A stretch of DNA of 54,326 bases from Arachnia propionica (GTDB lineage Bacteria > Actinomycetota > Actinomycetes > Propionibacteriales > Propionibacteriaceae), in the NCBI GenBank assembly GCA_002748325.1, contig PDSD01000017.1:1-54326 (forward strand), in the 5' to 3' direction. Below the pieces are notes generated by a model. It saw only the letters and a program-made list of their open reading frames with translations, made no database searches and was not told the DNA's origin. Of this stretch, positions 1,596 to 9,329 are shown piece after piece. The position numbers and the translations under genes were made by a program. Positions within the stretch are counted from its first letter, which is position 1. Each line of letters begins with the position of its first letter.

Positions 1596-2189
1596 CTAGC
1601 GCCCCTCGACATCCCGCGACGCGGCAGCCGCCGCGATTCTGGCCAGCTCCGCATTGGCGTTGCGTTCGCTCAACTCGATAGGTTCGCCAGCGGCGACGGC
1701 GAGGCTAGCCGTATAGCCCGGCCTTGGTGTGGCCAACTGCAACATCTCCACCGGACTATTCGCCGCGTCGTCACCGAGCTTGGTTTTGGCCTCCTTCGCG
1801 GTCCAGTCCGCGGCGGTCTTCCCGGTCGGCACATCGGCGTCTCGTTCGACGTCCACGCCGACGGGCAGCCGGGCGGCGGCCACTACGGTCAACACCCCGG
1901 CATGGCTGAGGCTTAGCTCTACCCCTGCCACCCGCGGGCGGCCATGCTCGCCGCCACATTCCTCGCAGCAGCGCGCCACCTCGACATCGCCGGGCTCGAT
2001 CCCTAGTTCGGTTGCCGCCGCCAGCCGCAGCAGTGCCGCACCAAGCAGGCTTCGGCCCCGATCCGCAGCCGAGACGTAGTTGTCGGCCCGGGCAAGCTCG
2101 CTCGCTGAAACCACGTCACGCAGCCGCCGGTCGACGGCGGTGAGGTCGGCCCACCAAACCTGTACTGGGAGTCGTGGCATGTAGCACAC
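1596..2189 (-). CDS. 4'-phosphopantetheinyl transferase superfamily protein (Sfp-like)
   Basis: GVELSLSHAG...VGVDVERD...DWTAKEAKTKL motifs; GTG start at 2189 or ATG at 2180. Confidence 0.85.
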   Translation of the reverse strand: MCYMPRLPVQVWWADLTAVDRRLRDVVSASELARADNYVSAADRGRSLLGAALLRLAAATELGIEPGDVEVARCCEECGGEHGRPRVAGVELSLSHAGVLTVVAAARLPVGVDVERDADVPTGKTAADWTAKEAKTKLGDDAANSPVEMLQLATPRPGYTASLAVAAGEPIELSERNANAELARIAAAAASRDVEGR

Positions 2190-2217: not shown

Positions 2218-4808
2218 GTGGCAGTTTTCGACAGTGTTAGCACACTTATTTCGAGACCCCACCTATTGACTGACCGCCATCGCACCGAATGGGCCGACCA
2301 CCCGGCACTTATCACCACCGACCGCTGCCTGTCCTACGGCGAGCTGAGCGAACTAGTGGCCGAGGCGGGTAGCAAGCTCCGCCACGATCAGCGGCAACTA
2401 GTCCACCTGCCCATGACGACCTCCGTCGAGGCCATCGTGGCGCTGCTGGCAACGATCGAATCCGGCAACGTGGCACTGATCACCACCGACGACCCGGATC
2501 AAGCCGAACCGATAGTGACGCGCTACCGGCCAGACGCGACCTGGAGCAGCAACGGCCTCACCTCGCATCGCGAACCGCAGCATCTGCTTCACCCAGAGCT
2601 GGCTGCCCTGCTGTCAACCTCGGGCAGCACCGGGTCGGCCAAGCTGGTTCGGCTTTCGGCAACCAACCTGGTCAGCAACGCCGACGCGATCGCGCGCAGC
2701 CTCGGCCTTGGCCCCGACGACCGGGCCATCACCAGTCTGCCGCTGCACTACTCCTACGGGCTGAGCGTGCTCACCTCCCATCTGCGGGTGGGCGCCAGCC
2801 TGGTCGTCTCGGATACCTCGTTCATCGAATCGGAGTTCTGGGACGAGATCCAACAGCACCAGGTCACCAACATGGCCGTCGTGCCACTCATGGCGCAGCT
2901 GATAGCCGCCCACGGCGGCGTCCCCGACGACGTCACTTCGCTGCGCTTCATCACCCAGGCGGGCGGCAAGCTGGAGCCGCACGAGGCAACCCAATGGGCA
3001 GAAGCGTCGCGCCGCGCGGGCCGCAAGTTCTACGTCATGTACGGCCAGACCGAGGCGACCGCCCGGATGACCCCGACACCGTGGGACGCCCCATCGCCGA
3101 CTCGCGCATCGACCTTGCGCCGGTGGATGACGTGGCCGACCTGCCCAAGGGTGCGGGCGAGCTGGTGTTTAGCGGCCCCGGGGTCATGCTTGGCTACGCC
3201 GAACACAGCGACGATCTGGCGCTAGGGCGCATGATCGACGAGCTTCACACCGGCGACCTGGCCACCATCGACGACGACGGGCTGGTGCGAATCGTCGGCC
3301 GCCGCAGCGACTTTTGCAAGATAGCTGGCCTGCGCGTCGACCTGGCCGCGGTGCAGGCCAGGCTCGCCCGAGACGACTTGGCCGCCATCGTGGTAGGCGA
3401 CGACGACGGGCTAGCGGTAGCCCTCGATGGTGCCCGCGAGCCAACCGCTACCACGGCCGAAATCCGCGATGCTGCTGCGGCGGCTGGCGGGCTGGACCTA
3501 GCCCTGGTGTCGGTAGCCGTGCTGCCCAAGCTGCCCACGCTGCCCAGTGGCAAGGTGGATCGGGCCGCCTGCCTGCGCGAAGTGCGGGCCGCCCACGAAA
3601 CCCCGCGCAAGCCGAAGCTGTGGCGGCGCGGCAACCGCGAGAGCGCCGAGGATGCACTGGCCCGCATCTTGGGCAAGGAAGAGCTAGCTACCAGCAAGTC
3701 GTTCGTAGCCAACGGCGGTAACTCCCTCAATCATTCGGCGGCGGCCGTCGCGCTGGCCCGCGAGTGCGGTTCGCTGCCCCGGGACTGGCATCATCGCCCC
3801 TTGGCCGAGTTCCTGGAAAGCGAAGGCCCAAAGCGACGGCGCTGGCTGATCAGCGTCGAAACCTCCGTGGTGCTACGAGCGTTGGCCGTGTTGACCATCG
3901 CGGGCAACCACACCGGAGCCATCGAGATGCTCGGCGGCGCGCACGCCCTGCTGGCCATCGCTGGCTACAACTACGCCCGCTTCATCCTGAGCCAGCAAAA
4001 CACCTGGCAGCGCTGGCGCGCCAGCCTGCGAACCATGTCGGCGGTCGCGATCCCGACAATGCTGGTGGCCTTGTTCGGCGTGCTGGTGACCGGCTACTAC
4101 CTGTGGCCCAACGTATTCATGCTCGACTGGGTATTCGGCCCCGACACCGCAGGCGGCCGCCACCGGGTGCTGTGGTTCATCGAAACCTACCTGCTGGCGA
4201 TGCTGCTGGCCGCAGCGGTGATCTCGATTCCCGCGGTGACGCGATGCTACCGGAGCAGGCCGTGGCTGACCGGCGTGGGGTTGACGCTGGTCACCCTGAT
4301 CGCCAAACCCATTGCATTCGGCTTCGGCATGGAACGAGCCCACTACCTGCCGTGGGTCTGTGTTTGGTTCTTCATGCTCGGCATCGCCATCGCCAACAGC
4401 ACGACCTGGCCGAAGCGGCTGGTGACGCTGGCATTAATGGCGGCGGGCACCTACCAGTTCTTCTTCCACCCGTTCCACCAGGTGAACCGGGAAATCTACG
4501 TGGCGGTCGCGATCGCGCTGCTGATCTTGCTCGCCAACGTGCGGCTGCCGATCCTGCTGGCCCGCGTGGTTCAGCTGCTGGCATCGGCTTCGCTTTACGT
4601 CTACATCCTGCAATTCGACCTGTTCCACGTGATGACCTGGATCCGGCTTGGCACTCCGTGGGGCAAATTCATCGGCGCGGTGGTGGTTGCCACCGCGATC
4701 TGGTGGCTGGTTGACCAGGCGCTAAAGCGGATCTCGGCGGCCTGGGCAGCCAGGCAGCAGCCAGTCCTAACGTGGCCGCCAGTGCTGCGTAGGGCCGAGG
4801 CGAGCTAG
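2218..4808 (+). pseudogene. AMP-binding (adenylation) domain - carrier protein - membrane acyltransferase (AT3-like) fusion, frame-disrupted near 3070-3075
   Basis: ORF 2218..3225 (ALLSTSGSTGSAKLVRLS, YVMYGQTEATARM) continues in another frame as ORF 2994..4808 (DTVGRPIADSRIDLAP...GELVFSGPGVMLGYAE...HTGDLATIDDDG...; carrier motif GGNSL at 3714-3728; then about 8-10 TM segments with RALAVLTIAGNH). Confidence 0.8.
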
Positions 4809-5130: not shown

Positions 5131-5883
5131 TCAGCTCAAACTTGTCGCCCTGGGGAACCACGACGTAGGAAATGCCCTGCGGCGCGGGGTAGCGTCATCA
5201 TGGCCGACGACGATGTTGTTCATGCCCGCAGCAGGCTTGGTGGTCAGGTACGGCGTGATGCCGTCAGCCATCTGCTTGACCTGCTCTTCGGTGTATTCCT
5301 CGGCCTTAGCGAAGTTCAGCGCGGCGTCCTTCTTGTAGGTGCCAAACGCCAGATCAGCGGTCTGCCAGGCACGGCAGTATTCGCTGGAGGTCACGTCGCC
5401 GACCGGAATGTTCGCCTTGGCGAACGCAGCACCGATCTCGCGAGCCTGCTTCCAGCCCTTCTCGCTCAGCGAGCGCTGGGTGGCGCAGTTTTCCATGTCG
5501 ATGTCCGGGCTGGCCTGGTCGGCCCAGTCCTTGTTGGTCTGGCCGTGGCGAACGAACACGACGTAGCCGCCAGCCTGCAGGCCCTTCAGCAACTCTTCGT
5601 CGCTGACCTTGTTCTGGAACTCTTCGTTGCGCTTTTCACCCTCGGTCATTTCTCCTTCTTCGCCGTAGCCGCTGGCCGACTCTTCGGCAGTGGCCTCGGG
5701 CTTGGCCGACTCTTCGGCGGTAGCCTCAGTATTGGCCGATTCTTCGACCGTGGCCTCCGGCTTGGCAGACGCGTCGTCTGCTGGCTTCGTCTCGCCGCCG
5801 CTGCAGGCGCTGAGGCCCAACAGCACAGCGAGCATGGCGCTGGCGCCAGTGATCCAGGGTTTGCGGATGGAGGTGTGAAGCAT
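5131..5883 (-). CDS. Secreted/lipoprotein histidine phosphatase family protein; apparent C-terminal frameshift (original stop probably at 5087)
   Basis: Lipobox LLGLSAC; VVFVRHGQTNKDW, NCATQRSLSEKGWKQAREIGAAF, TSSEYCRAWQTADLAFG, NIVVGHDD; SD AAGGAGAG before ATG. Confidence 0.85.
   Translation of the reverse strand: MLHTSIRKPWITGASAMLAVLLGLSACSGGETKPADDASAKPEATVEESANTEATAEESAKPEATAEESASGYGEEGEMTEGEKRNEEFQNKVSDEELLKGLQAGGYVVFVRHGQTNKDWADQASPDIDMENCATQRSLSEKGWKQAREIGAAFAKANIPVGDVTSSEYCRAWQTADLAFGTYKKDAALNFAKAEEYTEEQVKQMADGITPYLTTKPAAGMNNIVVGHDDATPRRRAFPTSWFPRATSLS
5674..5763 (-). repeat. In-frame 30-bp tandem repeats x3 encoding a 10-aa acidic linker unit
   Basis: KPEATVEESA-NTEATAEESA-KPEATAEESA just after the lipobox. 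Confidence 0.85.
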
Positions 5884-5895
5884 TGCTCTCCTTAT

Positions 5896-5914
5896 TTAGC
5901 TTAGCCTTACCTAA
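5896..5914. promoter_or_regulatory. DtxR/IdeR-like iron box upstream of the histidine phosphatase
   Basis: TTAGCTTAGCCTTACCTAA, 17/19 vs TTAGGTTAGCCTAACCTAA. Confidence 0.85.
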
Positions 5915-5972: not shown

Positions 5973-6608
5973 TCACAATTTGGTCACAGAATCCGCCAGG
6001 GCGGCCGCATCAGCCTGATCGTGGGTGACCAGGATCGAGGTCATCTGGCAGCTTTCCAGCACAGTACGCACCTCGTCGCGGATGCGAGCACGAAGGTCCA
6101 CGTCCAGGTTCGAGAAAGGCTCATCGAGCAGCAGCAACGCCGGTTGCGGGGCCAGCGCCCGCACCAGCGCCACCCGCTGTTGCTGGCCCCCACTTAACTG
6201 GTAGGGGTACTTGTCGTGATGCTCGCTCATGCCGACCAGTCCAAGGAACTCCGCCGCCTGCTTGCGCCGTTCTTGCCGCCCCATGCCGCGCAGCCCGTAG
6301 CCGACGTTGTCGATCACGCTCAGATGTGGGAACAGCCCGTAGTCCTGGAATACCAGCCCAATGTTGCGTTTCTCGGGGGGCGTGATCTTGGCACCGTCGC
6401 AGAGCACCTTGCCGTCCAGGGTGATCGTGCCCGCGGCCGGGGTCTCCAACCCGGCGATCAGCCGCAGCACCGTTGTCTTGGCCGAACCGCTCGGGCCGAG
6501 CAGCGCCGTGCACTGGCCGCGGTCGGCGGTCATCCCGAATCCGCGCAACTGCCAGGTCTGGGAACCGCGATAGCGGAAATCAAGGTTGGCCACTTCTAGG
6601 TAGCTCAT
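5973..6608 (-). CDS. Iron(III)-type ABC transporter ATP-binding protein (FbpC-like, short, altered Walker A)
   Basis: GPSGSAKTT, VFQDYGLFPHL, QLSGGQQQRVALVRALA, LLLLDEPFSNLD, VTHDQ; 211 aa, no C-terminal TOBE region. Confidence 0.85.
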   Translation of the reverse strand: MSYLEVANLDFRYRGSQTWQLRGFGMTADRGQCTALLGPSGSAKTTVLRLIAGLETPAAGTITLDGKVLCDGAKITPPEKRNIGLVFQDYGLFPHLSVIDNVGYGLRGMGRQERRKQAAEFLGLVGMSEHHDKYPYQLSGGQQQRVALVRALAPQPALLLLDEPFSNLDVDLRARIRDEVRTVLESCQMTSILVTHDQADAAALADSVTKL

Positions 6609-8257
6609 TGTTGGCCCCCTTCTGCCGGGCTTGCCGCATCGGAGCGCACCCGTCGCCCCATGATGATCGCGGTCGGAATGATGGTGAGGACGATGATCAG
6701 CAACGAGGCCAGCGACGATTCGGGGATCATCTCATCGTGGGCATATTGAAAAACCGTCGTGGATAGCGTTGTGAAGTTGAACGGCCGCAGGATCAGCACG
6801 ATCGGCAGCTCCTTGACGATATCTATGAAGGACAGCAGGAACGCACCCAGCAGGGCCGCGCGCAGCAGCGGGGCGTCGACGCGCAGCAGCGCGCGCCACG
6901 GCCCGTTGCCCAGCATCCGCGCCGATTCGGTATAGCGTTTGCCGATCCGCTCGAACCCGCTCTCCACACTCTGCAGACTGACCGCCAGGTAGCGCACCAG
7001 GTAGGCCAGCACCACGACGACGGGGCTGAGCACCAGCGTCTTGCCGGTGACTGCTTCGATGCCAACAAAGATAGACAGGATCGACAACGCGATCACCGTG
7101 CTGGGGATGGAATATCCCAGGGCGGCGATGCGGGAAAACATCGCCGATGCCCAATCGGGCCACAGCCGCCGATGATTGGTCACGATCACCGCGAACACGG
7201 TCGTCAGCGCGGCCCCGACCAACCCGAGCCACAGACTCGTCCACCAGGCTCCGGCTAGGGGTTTAAGGTCGATGGAGTGCCAGCTAACGACGGCCCAGTA
7301 GATCATCTGGGCGACCGGGATGATGATGGCTGACCAGAAGACACCGTGCGTGATGACCACGATCAGCACGCGCCGCAGCCCAGTCGCGGGAACGACGGCC
7401 AATGGCCGGATCCGGGGCGAGGCGTAGCTGTAGCGCCCGGATCCGCGCAGCGTTCGCTCCCCCACAAGCACCAGCGTCACCACCACCAGCAGCAACGCAG
7501 ACAGCTTCATGGCCGAACTGATGTCATGCAGCCCCTGCCAGCTCTTGAAGATCGCGGTGCTGAACACGTGCAGGCCGTAGTAGGACACCACGCCGTAGTC
7601 GCTCAGCACCTCGAAGGCCACCAGTGTCCCCCCGGCGACTACGGCCGGGCGGGTCAACGGCAGCACGATGCGCCAATACAGTTCCGCGCGACTGCTGCCC
7701 AGCATCGCCGCTGCCTCAACCAGCTGGCCAGCCTGCAGGTGCAGAAAACCGCGCACCACCAGATAGACATACGGGTATAGGAAGAGCGTGAAGATCGCGA
7801 TGGCCCCGGGGGTGTTCATGATGTCGAGCGAGCCCGGCGGCACCTCGATGCTTAAGCGCCGCAGCCACACCTGGATCGGCCCGGTGTAGCCGACGATGCT
7901 GGCATATGTGCTAGCCCCGATGTAGGGCGGGATCGCGATCGGTAGCACCAGGCCGACTGTCAGCCAGCGTCGTCCCGGGAAGTCGTAGGCGGTCACGAAC
8001 CAGGCCAATGCGGAACCGACCGCTACCGCCCCAGCCAGGGAGCCGAGCAACAGCCACAACGTGTTGCCGATGTAGCGCAGCAACAGGGTGTCTTGGATGT
8101 GACGCCAAGCGTCCGTCGCGGGCGCGAGCAGCCCCCACAGCACGGCACCCAGTGGCAACGCCACCACGGCAGCGATCAGTAGGCTGCCGAGAAACCATGA
8201 CGACCGGGTAAGCGATTGCCGACCCGGTCGTCGATGTTTCGGTGAGATCAGTTCCAC
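6605..8257 (-). CDS. Iron(III)-type ABC transporter permease (FbpB-like, duplicated permease halves)
   Basis: 550 aa, about 12 TM segments; overlaps the ATPase start and the SBP stop. Confidence 0.88.
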   Translation of the reverse strand: MELISPKHRRPGRQSLTRSSWFLGSLLIAAVVALPLGAVLWGLLAPATDAWRHIQDTLLLRYIGNTLWLLLGSLAGAVAVGSALAWFVTAYDFPGRRWLTVGLVLPIAIPPYIGASTYASIVGYTGPIQVWLRRLSIEVPPGSLDIMNTPGAIAIFTLFLYPYVYLVVRGFLHLQAGQLVEAAAMLGSSRAELYWRIVLPLTRPAVVAGGTLVAFEVLSDYGVVSYYGLHVFSTAIFKSWQGLHDISSAMKLSALLLVVVTLVLVGERTLRGSGRYSYASPRIRPLAVVPATGLRRVLIVVITHGVFWSAIIIPVAQMIYWAVVSWHSIDLKPLAGAWWTSLWLGLVGAALTTVFAVIVTNHRRLWPDWASAMFSRIAALGYSIPSTVIALSILSIFVGIEAVTGKTLVLSPVVVVLAYLVRYLAVSLQSVESGFERIGKRYTESARMLGNGPWRALLRVDAPLLRAALLGAFLLSFIDIVKELPIVLILRPFNFTTLSTTVFQYAHDEMIPESSLASLLIIVLTIIPTAIIMGRRVRSDAASPAEGGQQ

Positions 8258-9285
8258 CCGACCTCGTCGAAGATCTTGGTCGCGGCGGGCACCTGCTCGC
8301 CGAAGGTTTCAAAGTCGAGCTGCTGGGTGCTGAACTCGCCCCAGCTGGCCTGCATTTCGGGCAGCGCCACAGCCGGATTCAGCGGGAACTCACCATTCTT
8401 TTCCGCATACAGTTGCTGCACTTCGGGACCGGACAGGAACTCCAACAGCTTCTGCGCGTTTTCTGGATGCTTGGCACCGTTCAATACTGCGGCATAGCTG
8501 ATGTTCAGGTGCGTGTCCTTGGGGAAGATCAGGCCGACCTGCTCGATCAGCTTGGCCTTCTCCGGGTCAGTCGAGTTGGCCATACGGGCGTAGTAGTACG
8601 AGTTCATGATCGCCAGGTCACCCACGCCAGCGGCGACGGCCTCGGCCTGGTTGATGTCGTTGCCCTTGGGATCGCGGGCGAAGTTGGCGGTTACTCCCGC
8701 TGCCCACTGCTTAGCCTCTTCCTCGCCATACAGGTCGACGAAGGAGGCCAGCAGCGCCTGGTTGTAGGAGGAGCCGGAGCTACGAACCAGGATCTTGCCC
8801 TTGAACTCGGGCTTCAGCAGATCTTGATAGGTCTCGATGCTCGCGGGATCAACCCGGTCCTTGGCGTAGGCGATGACGCGGGCCCTTGAGGTCATGCCCA
8901 TCCAACCCTTGCCCCGGAACTGCGCCGGGATGTTGCTCTCGACGACATCCGAGTTGATGTCGGCCAACACACCGTCCTGGTTGAGCAGGTAGATCGACTC
9001 CGCCCCGACGGTCAAGAACACGTCGGCCTGCGGCGATGACTGCTCGCGCAGGATCCGCTCGACTAGTTCCCCAGACTTGCCCTCAACGAAGTTGAGCTTG
9101 ATGCCGGTCTGTTCCTCGAACAGCGCGTAGACCTCCTTGTCCACGTCGTAATGACGCGACGAATAGACGTTTACGACCTCGCCTGATACTTCAGCGAATC
9201 CAGGCTCATCCGAGCCACCACTACACGCAGTCGCCAGCAGCGCCGAGGCGCCAACTAGGACCGCAACCAACTTCGTAGTTTTCAC
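8248..9285 (-). CDS. Fe(III) ABC transporter substrate-binding lipoprotein (FbpA/FutA-like)
   Basis: Lipobox ALLATAC; VNVYSSRHYDVDKEVYALFEEQTGIKLNFVEGKSGELVERI...GDLAIMNSYYYARM; GTG start with upstream AAGGGA. Confidence 0.9.
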   Translation of the reverse strand: MKTTKLVAVLVGASALLATACSGGSDEPGFAEVSGEVVNVYSSRHYDVDKEVYALFEEQTGIKLNFVEGKSGELVERILREQSSPQADVFLTVGAESIYLLNQDGVLADINSDVVESNIPAQFRGKGWMGMTSRARVIAYAKDRVDPASIETYQDLLKPEFKGKILVRSSGSSYNQALLASFVDLYGEEEAKQWAAGVTANFARDPKGNDINQAEAVAAGVGDLAIMNSYYYARMANSTDPEKAKLIEQVGLIFPKDTHLNISYAAVLNGAKHPENAQKLLEFLSGPEVQQLYAEKNGEFPLNPAVALPEMQASWGEFSTQQLDFETFGEQVPAATKIFDEVGWN

Positions 9286-9310: not shown

Positions 9311-9329
9311 TAAGGTCAGCCTAACTTGT
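9311..9329. promoter_or_regulatory. DtxR/IdeR-like iron box upstream of the Fe(III) ABC operon
   Basis: TAAGGTCAGCCTAACTTGT, 14/19 vs TTAGGTTAGCCTAACCTAA. Confidence 0.65.

Follow-up and report, generated by a model that had tools for sequence, protein, structure and literature searches.

In the stretch of Arachnia propionica DNA analysed here (54,326 nucleotides, hereafter the window), positions 2218–4808 of the forward strand encode an adenylation (A) domain, a carrier domain and an AT3 membrane domain, split over two reading frames. Intact orthologues carry all three domains in a single polypeptide, as had been proposed for the window gene, and we consider it reasonably likely (a probability of about 0.6) that this family, here termed A-T-AT3, is best explained as an iron-starvation enzyme that would activate, carry and transfer an acyl group within one chain in the service of Fe3+ collection. 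The A domain would activate a carboxylic acid at the expense of ATP and attach it to the phosphopantetheine of the fused carrier, its swinging arm. The AT3 domain would take the acyl group from this arm, not from CoA, and deliver it to an acceptor on the outer side of the membrane, an outward direction suggested by membership of the AT3 family. The acylated product would help to collect or present Fe3+ for a neighbouring ferric-ion ABC transporter; for this last role, the collection of Fe3+, we regard the chances as evenly balanced.

A three-domain family and its broken copy

The window gene begins with a GTG codon in frame 1, which encodes the N-terminal part of the A domain (2218–3069; Pfam AMP-binding, 7.4e-36, and alignment with intact orthologues). 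On the same strand follow the C-terminal part of the A domain, with GDL, GRR and SGKVD motifs (3072–3635; NCBIfam, for example AA-adenyl-dom at 8.4e-11, and the same alignment), the carrier (thiolation) domain (3636–3830, with GGNSL and its Ser codon at 3723–3725, assigned by alignment with orthologues positive for PP-binding) and the AT3 domain (3846–4808). The motifs quoted in a first-pass annotation, including this Ser codon, all lie where it had placed them, in two frames. Separating the two parts of the A domain is an out-of-frame break (3070–3071) that leaves the gene about 31 nucleotides short of every intact orthologue: in all 17 orthologues of our alignment, 11 residues separate 'ARM' from the 'PDTVG' position, where the window has 2 nucleotides. 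The coding frame changes at about 3090, with a strong coding signal on either side of the change, so the break is either recent or an assembly error; the source assembly is a 1.09-Mb genome bin that is 61% complete. If the break is no assembly error, the frameshift probably leaves the window copy without activity, and the earlier idea of a protein that is functional once its frame is restored gives way to a gene that is broken as sequenced.

We consider it reasonably likely that the window locus is a decaying, functionless remnant, a reading that concerns this copy and is compatible with our explanation for the family. In addition to the frameshift, the ATPase of the adjoining transporter is truncated. 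The next gene (5131–5883, reverse strand), which encodes a histidine-phosphatase-superfamily lipoprotein with a repeated Glu/Ala-rich linker (Pfam PF00300, 3.3e-8), also seems, by eye, to have a broken frame near 5190, and decay may extend to the entire iron locus. Set against this, the coding signal that remains intact on either side of the break points to recent decay or to misassembly in the incomplete bin, and the family is unaffected.

Intact A-T-AT3 orthologues of about 830–940 amino acids occur in Actinobacteria and Alphaproteobacteria. We recovered 17 from 98 genomes of relatives; 3 of 39 genomes of the same genus have one, so the gene is patchy. A scan of named genomes returned full-length actinobacterial homologues in Streptomyces, Arthrobacter, Mycobacterium, Nocardioides, Pedococcus, Lentzea, Phytohabitans, Janibacter, Agromyces and others, and alphaproteobacterial ones, at 33–39%, in Rhizobium, Sinorhizobium, Phyllobacterium, Mesorhizobium and Leisingera. 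Intact members match AMP-binding, PP-binding and Acyl_transf_3 in Pfam, and the C-terminal region of the orthologues, whose kinship with acyltransferases had been the point to check, contains the AT3 domain; the architecture of A domain, carrier and AT3 in one polypeptide is, on these sequences, almost certain.

Copies also occur on plasmid records of Rhodococcus fascians, R. opacus, Mycolicibacterium chubuense and Rhizobium etli (p42e). Cadmium/arsenic-type resistance genes adjoin the unit of ferric transporter and A-T-AT3 on the R. fascians and M. chubuense plasmids. Its plasmid location and these neighbours suggest that the unit moves between bacteria. Although A-T-AT3 is found, partly plasmid-borne, in Rhizobium, Sinorhizobium, Streptomyces, Mycolicibacterium and Rhodococcus, databases annotate it only as 'AMP-binding protein', and our literature searches, which were not exhaustive and left most subscription journals outside, found no paper describing the fusion or an iron-regulated version of it. 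A paper on kineochelin met in these searches proved to be unrelated. A defence-system search of the window gave no match.

Substrate and acyl donor

The A domain has the ATP motifs STSGSTG, GDL and SGK and fold matches to known A domains, and its catalytic Lys (A10) is present in 68 of 68 family members. The attachment Ser of the carrier is equally invariant (68/68). The first-pass annotation had singled out GGNSL as unusual: Asn before the Ser is indeed a minority state (5 of 51 actinobacterial members, with Asp in the rest), but it is not unique to the window. The Pfam PP-binding model gives no match in the window copy but does match intact orthologues whose alignment with this copy runs through the carrier. 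Divergently adjacent to the gene is one for a predicted Sfp-like phosphopantetheinyl transferase (PPTase; 1596–2189, reverse strand), with GVDVE and WTAKEAKTK motifs and matches to AASDHPPT_N and HetI that are both below cut-off; its product is 43–47% identical to those of the PPTase genes that adjoin the orthologues in two same-genus loci. In the window and the same-genus loci the PPTase gene diverges from A-T-AT3 and shares with it the intergenic space that holds the iron box, and in one further locus a PPTase gene lies near A-T-AT3. The invariant Ser and the adjacent PPTase gene are consistent with the predicted role of this Ser as the phosphopantetheine site.

In amino-acid A domains, Asp235 is the residue that contacts the α-amino group. 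By hand alignment to PheA numbering, this Asp is absent from 68 family members and from the window; position 235 is Cys or Ser in all members, and position 331 is an invariant Arg. A D-Ala-like substrate is therefore unlikely, and of the two classes proposed at first, a carboxylic acid fits this pocket and an amino acid is disfavoured. The substrate is probably a non-amino acid, to judge from these residues; we would guess that Arg331 suits an acid with a second negative group. Sequence matches in the Protein Data Bank (PDB) include oxalate-CoA ligase and, lower in the list, malonyl-CoA synthetase, which as a hint to the substrate are suggestive only.

The nearest stand-alone relatives of the A domain were found in seven loci that appear by eye to be surface-sugar clusters. 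These have recurrent neighbours of 360 and 400 amino acids (LuxE/LuxC-like by eye) along with SDR and transketolase-like genes. Family HMMs found no separate AT3 or carrier genes near these A domains; small ACP-like open reading frames are nonetheless visible nearby.

The membrane domain of the window matches Acyl_transf_3 (PF01757) above its cut-off (4.1e-10; 39.7 bits against 31), as do some of the orthologues, whose scores range from 22.6 to 57.8 bits with one below detection. Modelled alone with AlphaFold, it forms about ten helices (pTM 0.89); the model of an intact orthologue has a mean pLDDT of 88.7 and a pTM of 0.56, which makes the placement of its domains uncertain. The R and H of the R-X10-H motif in helix 1 (codons 3876–3878 and 3909–3911) are present in all 68 members and the window. 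These features are shared with AT3 proteins of the OafB, OatA, TmaT and ExoH type. A fold search with the window model and a profile search with the AT3 alignment gave no significant match in the PDB; one predicted viral protein of 637 amino acids was matched in fold (probability 1.00, TMq 0.57).

The family departs from other AT3 proteins at RXXR, a motif that is highly conserved in AT3s, though not absolute, and essential in OafB. When its position at the cytoplasmic start of helix 3 was aligned through a shared Pro anchor, RXXR was present in all 22 canonical AT3s from related genomes and in none of the 69 family members, and the window copy lacks it; some basic-x-x-basic sequence lies near the position in 19 of the 69. 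The missing RXXR marks the family as a divergent branch of AT3 rather than a typical member. In AT3, RXXR (Arg74) and R14 have been proposed to bind the 3′-phosphate of CoA (eLife 2023, PMC9833829). A carrier arm has no such phosphate, and from the loss of RXXR together with the fused carrier we infer that the acyl donor is, with good probability, the carrier arm instead of CoA. One caveat is that the family keeps R14, the Arg of R-X10-H, to which binding of the CoA phosphate is likewise assigned. A 2022 review favours acyl-CoA over ACP as the donor of AT3s and, in its accessible part, mentions AT3 fusions to SGNH and alanine-racemase domains only (PMC9558356). If the carrier arm is the donor, the family would add a type of donor new to AT3 enzymes, an acyl group bound to a carrier and not to CoA, and the loss of RXXR would be a clear sequence signature of it.

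Iron boxes and ferric transporters

Scanning the 54-kb window with what we take to be the DtxR consensus gave only three sites at up to five mismatches. One, with four mismatches and an intact 15-bp core (AGGTTAGGCTAACCT), lies in the divergent intergenic space between the PPTase and A-T-AT3 genes (2195–2213), a location in which such boxes are enriched among orthologues. The best, with two mismatches (5896–5914), precedes the gene for the histidine-phosphatase lipoprotein, which from this box is likely to be iron-regulated, and a weak one with five mismatches (9311–9329) is upstream of a gene for a ferric-binding lipoprotein. Across 54 actinobacterial loci, boxes with up to four mismatches number 26 in the 15.8 kb upstream of A-T-AT3 against 13 in 1.04 Mb elsewhere. 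Several of the latter are upstream of the ferric-binding gene in operons that end with A-T-AT3, and many loci with no box at A-T-AT3 have one before the binding-protein gene of the same operon.

The alphaproteobacterial loci have a different box. TTGA-N9-TCA occurs in 9 of 18 regions upstream of A-T-AT3, with 0–1 occurrences at nine other spacings; elsewhere in these loci there are 36 in 354 kb. Part of TTGA overlaps a possible −35 element, an overlap that leaves the fixed TCA unexplained. TGA-N9-TCA is, we presume, a form of the IRO box, the operator of RirA, and a box of this type is also upstream of A-T-AT3 in Sinorhizobium meliloti Ak57 and R. etli CFN42. Repression by RirA acts through IRO boxes (PMC5863699). 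The boxes make it very likely that A-T-AT3 is under iron-starvation control in two phyla through two unrelated regulators, one DtxR-type and one RirA-type. With ferric transporter genes as neighbours as well, the connection to iron is stronger than the first-pass annotation had claimed.

In S. meliloti, where the regulator would be RirA and not DtxR, transcript data may bear on this control. In Ak57 A-T-AT3 bears the tag LZK74_22455, and the gene order is A-T-AT3, DinB, glutathione S-transferase and ndk; ndk is SMc00595 (PMC2912261), and A-T-AT3 would thus be SMc00592 if the tags are consecutive. In a swarming transcriptome, SMc00592 ('hypothetical transmembrane protein'; A-T-AT3 by gene order only) has M values of −0.44/1.47/1.30/−0.23, near those of hmuT (−0.34/1.49/1.39/0.09), and rises together with hmuT and fhuF (PMC2848241).

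The search for intact orthologues and their neighbours, which had been suggested as a check, found at least two of the three genes of a ferric ABC transporter (FbpABC/SfuABC/FutABC type) within 6 kb of A-T-AT3 in 40 of 55 actinobacterial loci, window included, and all three in 38; these counts are approximate because some flanks are short, and the loci are not phylogenetically independent. The relative order of transporter and A-T-AT3 varies, with four arrangements or more (divergent, transporter first, A-T-AT3 first and convergent). The link is not obligatory, since no ferric transporter gene lies within 6 kb in any of 18 alphaproteobacterial loci and 15 of the 55 actinobacterial loci, among them most Arthrobacter and some Pedococcus members, lack an adjacent transporter. 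Binding-protein or permease matches were absent from 25 control loci with related A domains that lack AT3, a weak control set because it comes largely from other phyla. For the transporters beside A-T-AT3 on the R. fascians and M. chubuense plasmids, the annotation reads iron ABC transporter. The flanks of A-T-AT3 showed no further biosynthetic gene that recurs between loci; two recurrent clusters of open reading frames (clusters 4 and 5) were set aside as apparent antisense frames over the transporter genes.

The linked binding proteins fall in two ferric-ion classes, FutA and SfuA/HitA. The window protein is a lipoprotein of the FutA class (8248–9285, reverse strand; PDB 6g7n at 1.6e-81; FutA structures 2pt1 at 1.3e-80 and 2voz at 1.5e-72) with Tyr residues Y41, Y140, Y230 and Y231, which are conserved in 29–30 of 30; the one orthologue-linked binding protein tested is of the SfuA/HitA class (E value of 1e-119). 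The remaining transporter genes of the window, also on the reverse strand, encode a fused two-part permease (6605–8257) and an ATPase of 211 amino acids (5973–6608) that lacks the C-terminal TOBE part, its linked orthologues having about 333–358 amino acids. The permease clusters with permeases that adjoin orthologues; among curated names, its top matches are to other SBP-dependent permeases, with scores far short of the cut-off in every case. Sequence identity of the permease and the binding protein to the orthologue-linked ones is only 25–36%, and the binding protein has a single match in the relatives' genomes (E ≤ 1e-40), at 38% and unlinked, so the window transporter is a different orthologue or subclass from most of the linked ones.

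Alternative roles and known systems

The boxes and the transporter linkage would also be expected if the enzyme made a small diffusible siderophore-like molecule, transferring its acyl group to a soluble acceptor, with uptake of the intact iron complex through the neighbouring transporter. Single-enzyme siderophores made from primary metabolites exist (NIS type) and offer a precedent. We consider this route unlikely, as the linked binding proteins have a Tyr ferric-ion site and match FutA, SfuA and HitA, not siderophore-binding families, and the flanks hold no further recurrent biosynthetic gene.

AT3 proteins commonly acylate surface glycans, according to the 2022 review (PMC9558356), and when iron is short the enzyme could instead serve other ends, such as a barrier, energy sparing or signalling, by decorating a glycan or lipid of the envelope. 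This has been proposed for AimS, an AT3 of Acinetobacter baumannii that is induced by iron and zinc starvation and whose action leaves metal content unchanged (PMC13345540). AimS demonstrates that a part in iron starvation is open to an AT3; it differs from A-T-AT3 in standing alone, in having RXXR and in lacking A and carrier domains. The apparent surface-sugar clusters around the closest stand-alone A domains also lean towards decoration. Iron capture agrees better with a linkage to ferric transporters that recurs in four or more gene orders and with two subclasses of transporter, and we give decoration for other ends a low chance.

Transfer of D-alanine or another amino acid to teichoic-acid-like polymers, as by DltA–DltC–DltB–DltD, is very improbable: A-T-AT3 has the same overall logic of activation, carrier and transfer over the membrane and a weak similarity to DltA in its C part (1.3e-6), but Asp235 is missing, DltA ranks with the weaker matches by structure, the membrane domain is AT3 and not MBOAT, everything is in one iron-regulated polypeptide, and neither a DltB (MBOAT) or DltD-like partner nor another recurrent extra neighbour emerged from clustering of the flanks. 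The Dlt likeness of the first-pass annotation, with no DltC or DltD here, is a loose analogy only.

Our preferred reading, an enzyme serving Fe3+ collection, can be stated in a more specific form that we advance tentatively: an iron-acquisition module in which a self-loading transmembrane acyltransferase, using its own carrier arm and not CoA, would build an extracytoplasmic iron-collecting group for an importer of naked ferric ions, under DtxR-type control in Actinobacteria and RirA-type control in rhizobia. The linked binding proteins match those of the FbpABC, SfuABC and FutABC importers (E values as low as 1e-119), and their Tyr ligands are conserved; what differs is the pairing with an acyl-activating enzyme, of which we found no case in the literature searched. 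A-T-AT3 is a testable candidate for the supply of Fe3+ to FbpABC/FutABC importers, which obtain it without a dedicated chelator, and, if the reading is right, would add a so far unstudied step to bacterial iron acquisition.

Other proteins combine some of these parts. The ε-poly-lysine synthetase Pls and PosA, which are membrane single-module NRPSs, likewise join A and carrier domains to a membrane part in one chain; in A-T-AT3 that part is AT3, and the pocket is not of the amino-acid type. Aas/PRK08633, a bifunctional acyl-ACP ligase and phospholipid O-acyltransferase, resembles A-T-AT3 in its A domain and in uniting ligase and acyltransferase in one protein, but has, as far as we know, neither an AT3 domain nor an internal carrier. 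In two loci from some sphingomonad-type Alphaproteobacteria, which have no iron box, a gene of about 360–370 codons lies directly 3′ of A-T-AT3 and, judged by eye, possibly encodes a second AT3.
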